Below are positions 1 to 2,783 of a DNA stretch of 22,259 nucleotides, piece after piece. Every line of letters begins with the position of its first letter. Within the stretch, counting starts at the first letter, position 1. Under the pieces are notes generated by a model. It was not told the DNA's origin, searched no databases, and saw nothing but the letters and a program-made list of their open reading frames with translations. The DNA comes from a virus. A program made the translations under genes and the position numbers. Location: positions 1-22,259 of IMG/VR virus record IMGVR_UViG_3300025120_000623; one strand, 5' to 3'.

Positions 1-175
1 AATGCTCATCCAAGTTCACGCTCTCCACCTCATCCCCGTATTTCTCGCGAGGGTATTCCGTGCGCTCTACGCCTGTGACTACTGCAATTTTCTGTGGGTC
101 AGAGCCGAAGCCCCCACGATACACTACTTGTGTACCCTTGCGGATAATCCGCTTGTTCATAAACTTTGTTTTCAT
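1..175 (-). CDS. Hypothetical protein, 3' end beyond window
   Basis: This leftward reading frame starts at the ATG at 175 and is open to the left edge, so only the N-terminal 58 residues are visible. It begins MKTKFMNKRIIRKG and has a basic N-terminus followed by a mixed, charged stretch (VVYRGGFGSDPQ). I do not recognise the family. The start codon overlaps the stop of the upstream gene (ATGA, 4 nt), which suggests translational coupling. A second in-frame ATG at 160 is possible. All five arginine codons are CGN. It contains two of the short inverted repeats of this zone (120-134 and 140-152). Confidence 0.7.
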   Translation of the reverse strand, partial: MKTKFMNKRIIRKGTQVVYRGGFGSDPQKIAVVTGVERTEYPREKYGDEVESVNLDEH

Positions 176-345
176 TGTTCTATTTTCTTTCCTGTTTTCG
201 TATTCACCCATCCAACGCCCTCGACCCACTCCTCATCTGCATATATGAGTTGTTCCAACTCGTCGATAGTCATCTCGTAGAACTGCTCTTTCGTCATGTT
301 CATTTCATCCCCGTACTTCTCGTACATTGTATCCCATACACTCAT
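172..345 (-). CDS. Small acidic hypothetical protein (57 aa)
   Basis: This 57-residue acidic protein begins MSVWDTMYEKYGDEM and ends KTGKKIEQ. Its middle is rich in Glu and Asp (MTIDELEQLIYADEEW) and probably helical. I see no catalytic motif and do not recognise a family. Both ends overlap neighbours by 4 nt (ATGA), so it sits inside a tightly coupled leftward operon. The frame is open for 13 codons upstream of the ATG, but the overlap with the preceding stop supports this start. It contains the perfect inverted repeats at 247-261 and 328-340. Confidence 0.7.
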   Translation of the reverse strand: MSVWDTMYEKYGDEMNMTKEQFYEMTIDELEQLIYADEEWVEGVGWVNTKTGKKIEQ

Positions 346-515
346 AGCGACATCATTAAAAATGGATTCAAAAATTTGTTTGGTTCAACTCGCTCCTCTA
401 CGGGATCGTGTGGTATGAGACCCTTGCGTTGAGCCTCTATGCGATAAAGGACAGCCTTTAAGAATACAGAGTATTCAGCGTCCGTCATTTTAGGTTTGTA
501 TTTAGGTTTATCCAT
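342..515 (-). CDS. Small hypothetical protein (57 aa)
   Basis: This 57-residue protein begins MDKPKYKPKMTDAEY and ends LNPFLMMSL. The N-terminus is basic and is followed by a short helix-like region (EYSVFLKAVLYRIEAQR). I do not recognise a family. The start overlaps the end of the 508-912 gene by 8 nt, and the stop overlaps the next start by 4 nt. Its three arginine codons are all CGN. Two adjacent perfect hairpins lie inside the gene, at 445-460 and 462-476. Confidence 0.7.
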   Translation of the reverse strand: MDKPKYKPKMTDAEYSVFLKAVLYRIEAQRKGLIPHDPVEERVEPNKFLNPFLMMSL

Positions 516-912
516 GATTTACATATATTTCTTTCTGACTTTCTAAGTCATAGATTGCTCTCTCTCCTCTCTTAGAAGCTAACACAAGCGCATCCTTCAT
601 GCTAGGTAGGATGTTGCATAGGTCGAAGATGATGTTGCCATCCTCAACCCATGTCCCTAAGCAAACCGATTCGGAATTGTTTTGCAATTCTACGAGCGCA
701 CTCTCCCTGAACTCCTCGTACTTCCGCTTGAAAGACTGAGGGTTAGCGATTTCGATAGAACCTTCGGACGTGATGCCACCCACTACGAAACCTCTTTGAG
801 GTTCACGCCAGGTCTTGCCGTCTTTGGTCATCATGGAGGAGCCACCCTGAAGGGCAGTCCGTCCATAGACGTAGCTAGAAGCTACCTTGAAGTCATTGAA
901 TTTGATATCCAT
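508..912 (-). CDS. Hypothetical protein (134 aa)
   Basis: This 134-residue soluble protein begins MDIKFNDFKVASSYVYGR. Its middle has glycine-rich, beta-like segments (RGFVVGGITSEGS) and the C-terminal half looks alpha/beta. I see no recognisable catalytic motif and cannot name a family. It is in the leftward operon between the 45-residue gene at 921-1058 and the 57-residue gene it overlaps by 8 nt. The start ATG follows an A/T-rich leader with no Shine-Dalgarno sequence, as expected for Bacteroidetes. Perfect inverted repeats lie at 536-550, 674-690, 789-803 and 871-885. Confidence 0.75.
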   Translation of the reverse strand: MDIKFNDFKVASSYVYGRTALQGGSSMMTKDGKTWREPQRGFVVGGITSEGSIEIANPQSFKRKYEEFRESALVELQNNSESVCLGTWVEDGNIIFDLCNILPSMKDALVLASKRGERAIYDLESQKEIYVNHG

Positions 913-920
913 TGTTGAGA

Positions 921-1058
921 TTAATTAAAAATTAAAGAAGTGTTTTCATCGTAGGCTTCGCCTACTAATCGGCAACCTTCATAGTCGCCTATCATGTGGA
1001 AGTACTCGTAAGCCTCCTCTATCTCACATAGTGAGAAGTCTAGGAAGTGATTATACAT
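921..1058 (-). CDS. Small acidic hypothetical protein (45 aa)
   Basis: A 45-residue leftward ORF begins MYNHFLDFSLCEIEEAY and ends NTSLIFN. It is acidic and probably helical (EIEEAYEYFHMIGDYEG), but I do not recognise it. Its start overlaps the end of the preceding gene by 8 nt, which supports translation as part of the operon. Three perfect hairpins fall inside it: 921-935 (at the stop codon), 951-965 and 1022-1036. Confidence 0.6.
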   Translation of the reverse strand: MYNHFLDFSLCEIEEAYEYFHMIGDYEGCRLVGEAYDENTSLIFN

Positions 1059-1218
1059 AGCTTCCAACTAAGTCCTCCAATCGCATCTGCTCTGAGCAGC
1101 TGAGTGTATCCCACTCCGCACATTGGCGGAAGTTGTCGATACCGAGGAATTGAACATCGTTGAAAAGAGCCGAAGCCATTTGCGCTTTCTTGCGCTGAGT
1201 GTCTGTGCAGTGTAGCAT
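1051..1218 (-). CDS. Small hypothetical protein (55 aa), first gene after promoter
   Basis: A 55-residue ORF begins MLHCTDTQRKKAQMASALF and ends LEDLVGSYV. It has three cysteines, without a zinc-finger spacing I can recognise. The family is unknown. It is the first gene downstream of a good Bacteroidetes-type promoter (1256-1287), with a leader of about 35 nt carrying the paired boxes also found before the 1608-2135 gene. It overlaps the next gene by 8 nt. Hairpins lie at 1087-1099, 1102-1116 and 1115-1130; the 5' third of the gene has few. Confidence 0.65.
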   Translation of the reverse strand: MLHCTDTQRKKAQMASALFNDVQFLGIDNFRQCAEWDTLSCSEQMRLEDLVGSYV

Positions 1219-1224
1219 AGAATT

Positions 1225-1244
1225 GAGATTTTGAAGTTGGCTGA
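1225..1244 (-). promoter_or_regulatory. Two-box leader motif, copy 1
   Basis: On the plus strand the two boxes read GAGATTTTGA (1225-1234) and AAGTTGGCTGA (1234-1244). The same two boxes occur before the 1608-2135 gene, separated there by 7 nt rather than sharing one base. Both copies sit in the 5' leader close to the ATG. This could be a shared regulator or RNA-binding site; the function is unknown. Confidence 0.45.
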
Positions 1245-1255
1245 ATTGCCGATTG

Positions 1256-1287
1256 CAAAGATATAACAGACTTTCCGTTATTCCAAA
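1256..1287 (-). promoter_or_regulatory. Bacteroidetes-type promoter (leftward)
   Basis: On the minus strand a -33 element TTTG (1284-1287) is separated by 20 nt from a -7 element TATCTTTG (1256-1263), matching the Bacteroidetes consensus TTTG/TAnnTTTG. It lies 38 nt upstream of the ATG at 1218 and should drive the leftward operon from 1218 past the left edge. A weak dyad, ATAAC/GTTAT, lies in the spacer. Confidence 0.75.
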
Positions 1288-1297
1288 TTTATTTTTT

Positions 1298-1311
1298 TAC
1301 CCTTTAGGGTA
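1298..1311. promoter_or_regulatory. Perfect dyad upstream of leftward promoter
   Basis: TACCCT-TT-AGGGTA is a perfect 14-nt inverted repeat just upstream of the -33 box at 1284-1287 and just after the stop of the 1315-1557 gene. It is not followed by a T-run in the direction of leftward transcription, so an intrinsic terminator is unlikely. It could be an operator, or one more member of the inverted-repeat array. Confidence 0.4.
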
Positions 1312-1314
1312 TAG

Positions 1315-1557
1315 TTAGATGATGTAAATGACATCGTAGTGAGGCATATCCGCTGCCCATCGGACAGCATAATGCTCGTCCTTCACGGGATCGAACACAT
1401 GGTCGCTCGAAGGAACCTCCTTGAGGAGGCACCATTCACTCCCATCTTTGAGGAGTTGAGCAGCAGCCCACGATTGAGCCTCTGAAACGGCAGAAAAACT
1501 GAGCTTCGTTCGAAACTCTGATTCCCCAAGGGGGAAGATGAAAGAGTAAATTTTCAT
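1315..1557 (-). CDS. Hypothetical protein (80 aa)
   Basis: This 80-residue protein begins MKIYSFIFPLGESEFRTK and ends PHYDVIYII. The N-terminal strand (IYSFIF), a central helix (SEAQSWAAAQLLKDGSE) and a C-terminal region (HYAVRWAADMP) suggest a small alpha/beta domain of unknown family. It sits between the histone-like gene and the promoter at 1256-1287. The start codon lies in one arm of an inverted repeat (ATGAAA / TTTCAT, 1538-1557). Other perfect repeats are at 1321-1335, 1366-1376, 1416-1429 and 1522-1536. Both arginine codons are CGA. Confidence 0.7.
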   Translation of the reverse strand: MKIYSFIFPLGESEFRTKLSFSAVSEAQSWAAAQLLKDGSEWCLLKEVPSSDHVFDPVKDEHYAVRWAADMPHYDVIYII

Positions 1558-1607
1558 AAATCTATGATTTAAAAGGTTTAATAACTAATGAAGTGATAAC
1601 TACGTTA

Positions 1608-2135
1608 TCAGAAAGGAGCAGTGTCAGCAATCAAAGCTTCAGCTTCAAGGCGGGCAGCCTCTATCTGAGCAGAGCGGAGTCGAGCCATGCACTCTTCGAC
1701 AGTCTCACCCTCTAAGAGGGTAACCTTCATCATCTTCTTCTTACGAGCCTTCGGCTCGATTACCTCGACCTCCTTACGAGGCTCGAATGGAAGAGCTTCA
1801 CCTTCGGTGACGGCATGGACAACCTTGGTCTTCTTGACCTTGCCAACCTTGTTGGCAGTAGCACCCTTCGCTTGAGTTAACTCAAGACCATCCTCTGACG
1901 TCCTCTTAGGACGGCGGATAGCCTTTTTCGAAGTCTTCGACTTCGCTTTGCGTTTCTTCGCTTTTGGCTTTGGCTGCTCCTTCGGAGCATCGATGGAGTT
2001 GATGAACTCAGTTAACGATGCTAAAGCATCGAGAGCCGTCTTCTGCTTCGCAGCATTCGGTGAGTAAACAAAGCTGTTTACAGCTTTCTTGAGGTCTTTC
2101 AGCATAGCTGACTTGTTTTCCAATGTCTTCGACAT
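1608..2135 (-). CDS. Lys/Ala-rich histone H1-like protein (175 aa)
   Basis: This 175-residue protein has a helical N-terminal part (residues 1-50), a very basic low-complexity centre (about 51-80, e.g. PKPKAKKRKAKSKTSKKA), a second basic stretch at 97-105 and 130-137, and an acidic Ala/Glu-rich C-terminal helix (145-172). The composition resembles bacterial histone H1-like proteins, so it may bind phage or host DNA or RNA. That is an inference from composition only. It is the first well-supported gene of the leftward cluster. Its DNA holds about 13 perfect inverted repeats, including ones over the start (2123-2135) and stop (1594-1610). Eight of nine arginine codons are CGN. Confidence 0.75.
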   Translation of the reverse strand: MSKTLENKSAMLKDLKKAVNSFVYSPNAAKQKTALDALASLTEFINSIDAPKEQPKPKAKKRKAKSKTSKKAIRRPKRTSEDGLELTQAKGATANKVGKVKKTKVVHAVTEGEALPFEPRKEVEVIEPKARKKKMMKVTLLEGETVEECMARLRSAQIEAARLEAEALIADTAPF

Positions 2136-2305
2136 GATAGAGAGATTTTGATTTTCCTAAGTTGGCTGACTTCCAAAACCGACTTAAGAGATAAAGAGTA
2201 AATGAAGAAGTCATAAGACTCCTTCTTCATATACTCTATCTCTACCTCTCTCACCATGCCAATCACTCTGTGATTTTCGACGCGGTGAATATCAACACAT
2301 GGCAT
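2099..2305 (-). CDS. Possible small gene upstream of histone-like gene
   Basis: A 68-residue leftward frame begins MPCVDIHRVENHRVIGMV. Its first 45 or so residues read like real protein (REVEIEYMKKESYDFF), while the C-terminal third runs through the leader and start of the 1608-2135 gene and looks like chance translation. It overlaps that gene by 37 nt. The frame is open for 11 codons upstream of the ATG before a stop. It contains the inverted repeats at 2202-2230, 2261-2275 and 2302-2314, as the neighbouring coding regions do. The family is unknown, and it could instead be leader sequence. Confidence 0.3.
   Translation of the reverse strand: MPCVDIHRVENHRVIGMVREVEIEYMKKESYDFFIYSLSLKSVLEVSQLRKIKISLSCRRHWKTSQLC
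2142..2169 (-). promoter_or_regulatory. Two-box leader motif, copy 2
   Basis: GAGATTTTGA (2142-2151) and AAGTTGGCTGA (2159-2169) on the plus strand repeat the boxes at 1225-1244, here 7 nt apart, upstream of the histone-like gene start at 2135. No convincing -33/-7 promoter was found next to this copy. Confidence 0.4.
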
Positions 2306-2508
2306 CGAAGATGCTTCACGTAGGTTGAAGGAAATGCCTCGAAATCAGAGGGGAAAGTACCTTCATTTATGAAGGTTGCTATTGTCTAACCTATGGTTAG
2401 GGGGGGATTGTCCTGATGTCTCTCATCCCAAGGATTTATCCTTGTACGCTTCAGTTGAAGTCAAACTTGAAGTGGACTAGGCTAAGTAGCTGATAGATAG
2501 GAGGTTGA

Positions 2509-2607: not shown

Positions 2608-2729
2608 CAGTATACATAATCCCCAAGATCTGTATTACGCACCTTTTTTTAAAGCGGTTTTACCAACGAAGTTATGAACAAACCATCCTACACACTGGTT
2701 AAGAGGCTGTCATTAAGTGACTTATAGAG

Positions 2730-2752: not shown

Positions 2753-2783
2753 TTGACTTTTAAAGAAAAAAGTTGTAACTTCG
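2753..2783 (+). promoter_or_regulatory. Candidate rightward promoter
   Basis: TTG (2753-2755) and TAACTTCG (2776-2783) are 20 nt apart, the same spacing as the promoter at 1256-1287. The -7 box has one mismatch to TAnnTTTG. It would start a transcript of about 135 nt leader before the ATG at 2925 and drive the rightward gene block. Confidence 0.6.

Follow-up and report, generated by a model that had tools for sequence, protein, structure and literature searches.

We find that the left end of a phage genome, IMG/VR record IMGVR_UViG_3300025120_000623, carries a dense array of short perfect hairpins that stand far above chance, have a defined size and share no sequence, and whose shape is kept in relatives by paired changes in the two arms. 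The record is complete at 22,259 bases, all of which were analyzed (hereafter, the window), and the array extends over ~2.5 kb downstream of a conserved single-copy sequence, the TAATACAG element. The existence of the array is well established, and its function can only be inferred; under our preferred interpretation, to which we give a probability of roughly 0.45, short hairpins folded in DNA form a conserved field on one side of a putative replication origin or early promoter and would act there as structure-specific sites. The two features at issue are:

146..2460: the array, comprising 32 perfect inverted repeats (arm of 6 bp or more, loop of 0-5 nt); density declines toward low coordinates
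2616..2637, - strand: conserved element TAATACAGAnnnnGGGGATTAT / TAATACAGATCTTGGGGATTAT (the TAATACAG element), one copy per genome, marking where the array begins; a candidate replication origin or early promoter

We compared bases 1-2460 with 200 dinucleotide-preserving shuffles. Perfect hairpins whose arms reach 6 bp or more around a loop of exactly 3 nt were observed 18 times, versus 0.48 expected (shuffle maximum 3). When loops of 0-5 nt were admitted, counts were 32 versus 3.4 +/- 1.8 expected for arms of at least 6 bp and 47 versus 13 expected for arms of at least 5 bp. An initial annotation of this DNA, which had reported about 40 hairpins, 17 of them with arms of 6 bp or more around 3 nt, was therefore correct or slightly low, and the shuffled controls that it named as a check did not reproduce the array. 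The excess was confined to loops of 1, 2, and 3 nt (4, 6, and 18 hairpins, respectively), peaking at 3; loops of 6-20 nt showed none (4 versus 7.6 expected). Synonymous-codon shuffles of six open reading frames (ORFs) gave 1.8 hairpins with arms of at least 6 bp and loops of 2-3 nt (maximum 7 in 1000), versus 14 observed; together, the two kinds of shuffle rule out base composition or protein sequence as the cause. The array is also local, as the initial annotation had supposed from finding only scattered cases elsewhere: bases 2901 to the end of the window (~19 kb) were at chance level (26 versus 24.5 expected), and array-bearing genomes of 42-64 kb each contain a single block, with ~0.9-1.1 hairpins per kb in the remainder, ruling out a genome-wide property, the other outcome that the initial annotation had named as a refutation. 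Hairpins are spaced at a median of 40 nt, and we looked for helical phasing among them and found none.

The geometry of the hairpins is restricted while their sequence is not. Around 3-nt loops, stem lengths of 6 bp (82 hairpins, 5.8 expected) and 7 bp (79 hairpins, 2.1 expected) are the most frequent, beyond which further pairs occur at approximately the chance rate of 1/4, and stems around 2-nt loops peak at 7-9 bp. The closing pair is usually C-G (135/189) or T-A (43/189)—that is, pyrimidine-purine—and, these closing pairs excepted, the arms and first flanking bases vary freely. Roughly half of the 3-nt loops read GNA on one or other strand, versus 12.5% expected, and likewise when counted by position. 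The 2-nt loops are strand-symmetric, with both orientations equally frequent (TTTA 20, TAAA 18, CAAG 12, and CTTG 11, closing pair included). Loops of the GNA kind have a precedent in d(GCGAAGC), a DNA mini-hairpin of extraordinary stability (PMC6582339).

We collected ~100 related loci using the lysine-rich ORF at 1608-2135 and the terminase as queries; in ~30 of these, marine phage contigs, hairpins are likewise concentrated in a single block, at 10-24 per kb, with the same genes around it. In an alignment of 20 relatives, hairpin position is constant and arms differ: one position in coding DNA appears as CGATGCT-TT-AGCATCG, CGAAGCT-TT-AGCTTCG, CAAGGCT-TT-AGCCTTG, or TGATGCT-TT-AGCATCA, and one after the element as TTGGAAC-TAC-GTTCCAA, TCGGTGC-TAC-GCACCGA, or TTGGGGC-ATC-GCCCCAA. 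The compensatory arm changes that the initial annotation proposed to look for are abundant: among base pairs altered on both sides, Watson-Crick pairing was kept in 1199 cells of the pairwise comparisons and lost in 202, the cells being non-independent as lineages share history, and 614 of 3671 hairpin comparisons (144 distinct alignments, again non-independent) had changed yet remained perfect. Divergence was 0.146 inside hairpins versus 0.193 outside. Individual hairpins, listed from the element toward low coordinates, include:

2386..2400: CTAACC-TAT-GGTTAG, in the leader; homologous hairpins in relatives differ in arms and loops
2359..2376: ACCTTCAT-TT-ATGAAGGT, in the leader; paired changes in relatives are GCCTTCAT..ATGAAGGC and AACCTTCA..TGAAGGTT
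2261..2275: AATCAC-TCT-GTGATT, in the leader; relatives include GTATCAAC-TT-GTTGATAC, GTATTAGC-TT-GCTAATAC, and others
2188..2242: long imperfect hairpin with arms of ~20 bp, directly before the 175-aa ORF, seen in the sequence and the alignment of relatives; conserved there as two versions, one with an inner GAATTC-T(G/A)T-GAATTC
2070..2087: AAAGCTGT-TT-ACAGCTTT, in the 175-aa ORF, where it encodes KKAVNSF; found in nearly all relatives, with an A-T/G-C paired change
2016..2031: CGATGCT-AA-AGCATCG, in coding DNA; relatives have CGAAGCT/AGCTTCG, CAAGGCT/AGCCTTG, TGATGCT/AGCATCA, and CGAAGCC/GGCTTCG
1929..1945: CGAAGTC-TTC-GACTTCG, which on the - strand reads C-GAA-G
1744..1758: CGAGCC-TTC-GGCTCG; relatives have CGAACC/GGTTCG
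1594..1610: TGATAAC-TAC-GTTATCA
951..965: GTAGGC-TTC-GCCTAC, between ORFs
247..261: GAGTTG-TTC-CAACTC, an outlier of the array

The array always lies on one side of the TAATACAG element, and hairpin density jumps exactly there, from 0.1-0.8 per 200 nt before the element to 2.5-4.8 over the 1.2 kb that follow, returning to background by ~2.5 kb. The element is present in 35 viral contigs, generally as one copy per genome in those examined (in a few, variants miss the exact pattern), and this single copy rules out a general phage promoter; we also found no consensus pairs that would mark it as a structured RNA. An exact match in a contig binned as an archaeal metagenome-assembled genome (JAPKXQ010000057.1, our L192) is perhaps due to chance or to a misbinned phage. 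In both the window and its relatives, the site is a divergent junction, with structural genes running rightward and an operon running leftward. The two features looked for at an origin are found here—a cumulative GC-skew minimum at the array (in genomes G001 and G004) and replication genes nearby—with the skew confounded with gene direction.

The trait is nonetheless patchy, as relatives with the element divide into those with and without the array. Four genomes (G014, G015, G016, and G020) carry the element and no array, three (L090, L145, and L147) are intermediate, and hairpins are lacking in close relatives that share the element and have 97-99% similar terminases. Alternating purine-pyrimidine runs of 13-30 nt, which are prone to form Z-DNA, follow the element in L125, L133, L145, L147, and L017, reaching 27 nt in L125 and 30 nt in L147, and occupy the place of the first hairpin in array lineages; array-less lineages thus tend toward another supercoil-sensitive form at this place. 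On the terminase tree, array-bearing and array-less genomes are intermixed even at very short distances (G020 versus L069 and G017; G007 versus G003, with nearly identical terminases in G020 and L069 and in G007 and G003), leaving a single origin of the array unsupported on that tree. Given this mixing, the early region seems to be exchanged as a module, and the array seems to travel with it. We also looked for genes whose presence or absence tracks the array and recovered only array-internal ones, and homologues of the lysine-rich protein occur without the array as well. Farther afield, the 50 kb examined from each of Flavobacterium phage elemo and the uncultured MW202828 contain no array, and the array nucleotide sequence had no match in phage or plasmid records.

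We infer that selection acts on the pairing of DNA and not of RNA. When one pair was left free and the other five were required to be perfect (loops of 2-4 nt), the free pair was Watson-Crick in 1266 cases, G.T in 71, A.C in 67, and other in 233, with chance hits expected at 60, 66, and 245 for the last three classes. G.T was therefore not enriched over A.C. The same held for homologues mismatched at one interior pair (2 G.T and 1 A.C among 22). E. coli terminators were too noisy to calibrate G.U tolerance, so tRNA stems were used as a small control (6 G.U and 1 A.C in 132). The leader folds equally in both senses (RNA-fold z-scores of -2.52 sense and -2.49 antisense), coding DNA slightly better in sense (-2.93 versus -2.58), and as single-stranded DNA both strands of window positions 1600-2450 fold strongly (z of -8.2 and -6.1). 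A search of Rfam gave no match up to E = 1; two marks of structured mRNA or cis-regulatory RNA, tolerated G.U pairs and a curated family, were thus looked for and not found. Intrinsic terminators are rejected, as only five sites on both strands have a T-run after the stem (2.4 expected), against 32 hairpins. An RNA-level explanation—a leftward early transcript starting from the element, whose ~30 small hairpins protect it, block Rho or R-loops, or bind a protein—would account for the one-sided start at a promoter-like element, the decay from 5' to 3', the coverage of the leader and first ORFs of one strand, and the slight preference for the sense strand in coding DNA; selection on RNA stems would also maintain compensatory changes. 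It sits poorly with the lack of G.U tolerance, the equal antisense folding of the leader, the strand symmetry of the 2-nt loops, and the lack of an Rfam match or of consensus RNA structure at the element, and we consider it somewhat unlikely. Of the causes offered by the initial annotation, mRNA hairpins are thus not favored, with the one-sided start as the part that fits.

The main rival at the DNA level, also raised by the initial annotation, is mutational: near an origin, replication that switches template, or repair of mismatches in extruded hairpins, would copy arm onto arm and perfect palindromes without selection. Such quasi-palindrome mutations are known (e.g., PMC3820800), and they would explain strict Watson-Crick pairing and concerted arm change with no fitness effect, as well as the restriction of the array to a putative origin. 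We nevertheless disfavor copying between arms, and think it improbable, because stems plateau at 6-7 bp where a copying ratchet should lengthen them, many hairpin positions are retained across lineages, and close relatives with the same element and a near-identical backbone lack hairpins; known template switching resembles the array in its short perfect inverted repeats and paired arm changes, but is a scattered signature with no fixed stem length. Alternatively, the palindromes might simply take up negative supercoiling where divergent genes are highly transcribed, with no protein reader. Their position at the junction, the stability-type loops, and the fact that the element is followed, at one and the same place, by either a hairpin or a Z-prone tract are all in keeping with such a torsion buffer, which, however, needs neither a defined 6-7 bp stem nor one-sided placement, and we hold it to be a little less probable still. 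A promoter array of the N4 type is the least likely of these. The N4 early promoters (P1-P3), read by the virion RNA polymerase (vRNAP), are DNA mini-hairpins with a 5-7 bp stem, a 3-nt loop, and a C-GNA-G turn, extruded by negative supercoiling (PMC4496689); they involve single-stranded DNA-binding protein (SSB), lie in a podovirus early region, and have stem bases that are free while pairing is kept (PMC4496689). They are the nearest analogue of the array, whose 3-nt-loop stems share this geometry, and the phages studied here encode a virion-side protein of 3.2 thousand amino acids (aa) and an SSB-like protein. On the other hand, the N4 sites number three and have conserved bases both within the hairpin and around it, whereas the array has ~30 sites that share no sequence and occur also inside genes, with unconserved flanking bases, loops in both orientations, and no conserved -17 to +1 sequence shared by all sites. 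The giant protein, moreover, is poorly conserved among relatives, and searches of Pfam, PHROGs, and PDB (for PDB, with a 2178-aa part) matched the G001 version (3216 aa) to no RNA polymerase.

Other known systems also differ from the array. Single-strand initiation (sso) hairpins of plasmids and single-stranded DNA phages fold in exposed single strands near the origin and act as structural signals; they are one or a few specific structures of 100-200 nt, whereas the mini-hairpins of the array are interchangeable and spread over 2.5 kb. Arrays of the REP/BIME and CRISPR type are also palindrome clusters, but repeat one sequence, whereas here all arms differ and only geometry repeats, so that a repeat array of that kind is rejected. 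We found no description of a comparable hairpin array in the open-access literature searched.

Under our preferred interpretation, origin firing or heavy early transcription would leave the stretch negatively supercoiled or one strand displaced, and each palindrome could then fold stably, as a mini-hairpin or a very small cruciform whose loop is C-GNA-G, C-AAA-G, or 2 nt long. Proteins of early replication or transcription might thereby find many redundant, structure-specific sites at which to dock or prime, and the SSB-tailed lysine-rich protein encoded within the array possibly takes part. More tentatively, the array may amount to a DNA folding code, in which ~30 sequence-free, geometry-conserved mini-hairpins over 2.5 kb, coding genes included, to one side of the origin or early promoter, would be read by structure-specific machinery that starts replication or transcription, and not by sequence. 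Four homologues of the lysine-rich protein (L031, L046, L005, and L050) have SSB-like C-terminal tips (PTSDDLPF, FGDSPF, DTAPF), others end in MLEPSFAPAV, and a 100-aa early protein ending in SSDLPF (L104:13804-14106, - strand), present in most of the larger genomes compared, is a possible phage SSB; these tips hint at a single-strand DNA context and nothing more. Sites for a structure-specific protein, the remaining cause named in the initial annotation, are compatible with the data and the class we prefer, with the reader itself putative.

Several points weigh against this interpretation. The GC-skew minimum coincides with the gene divergence and so is alone no proof of an origin, and relatives with the element and no array indicate that the lineage can do without the array. 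Selection on RNA would also place the array where it is, on the side toward which a promoter-like element transcribes, and would also give its small sense bias in coding DNA, and the G.U comparison leans on a small set of tRNA stems, the terminator control being too noisy. Finally, any structure-reading protein is putative, and the SSB-like tips are motif-level similarities.

The genomic setting is that of a phage whose terminase (phrog_6681) and portal (phrog_6547) group it with podovirus-type phages of Flavobacteriia; the terminases of the closest named records are 40-46% identical. The leftward operon encodes a primase/helicase, a protein with a DnaA C-terminal helix-turn-helix, a T7 endonuclease I-like protein, a RecE-like exonuclease, and ribonucleotide reductase. 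Within the array, three ORFs are of note:

1608..2135, - strand: lysine-rich ORF of 175 aa; contains 7 of the coding-DNA hairpins from the synonymous-shuffle count
1315..1557, - strand: ORF of 80 aa, kept in array-bearing relatives; no family match
508..912, - strand: ORF of 134 aa, phrog_17808 (unknown function), with 3 hairpins inside

On the other side of the junction, a Bacteroidetes-type promoter-like sequence, TTG-N20-TAACTTCG, lies at window positions 2753-2783 (+), oriented toward the rightward genes.

The array is a clear case in which selection keeps small hairpins of DNA (or of nucleic acid) by the dozen even as the sequence of each is replaced, in coding and non-coding DNA alike, beside a conserved single-copy element. 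If DNA folds, these phages would provide a natural, testable system for cruciforms or displaced-strand hairpins in live replication or early transcription, a question for which most work has dealt with single sites, the N4 promoters among them; if RNA folds, the array would be a new kind of phage leader structure. The paired-change signal is strong, and the function is therefore accessible to direct mutational test, whether it resides in DNA or in RNA.

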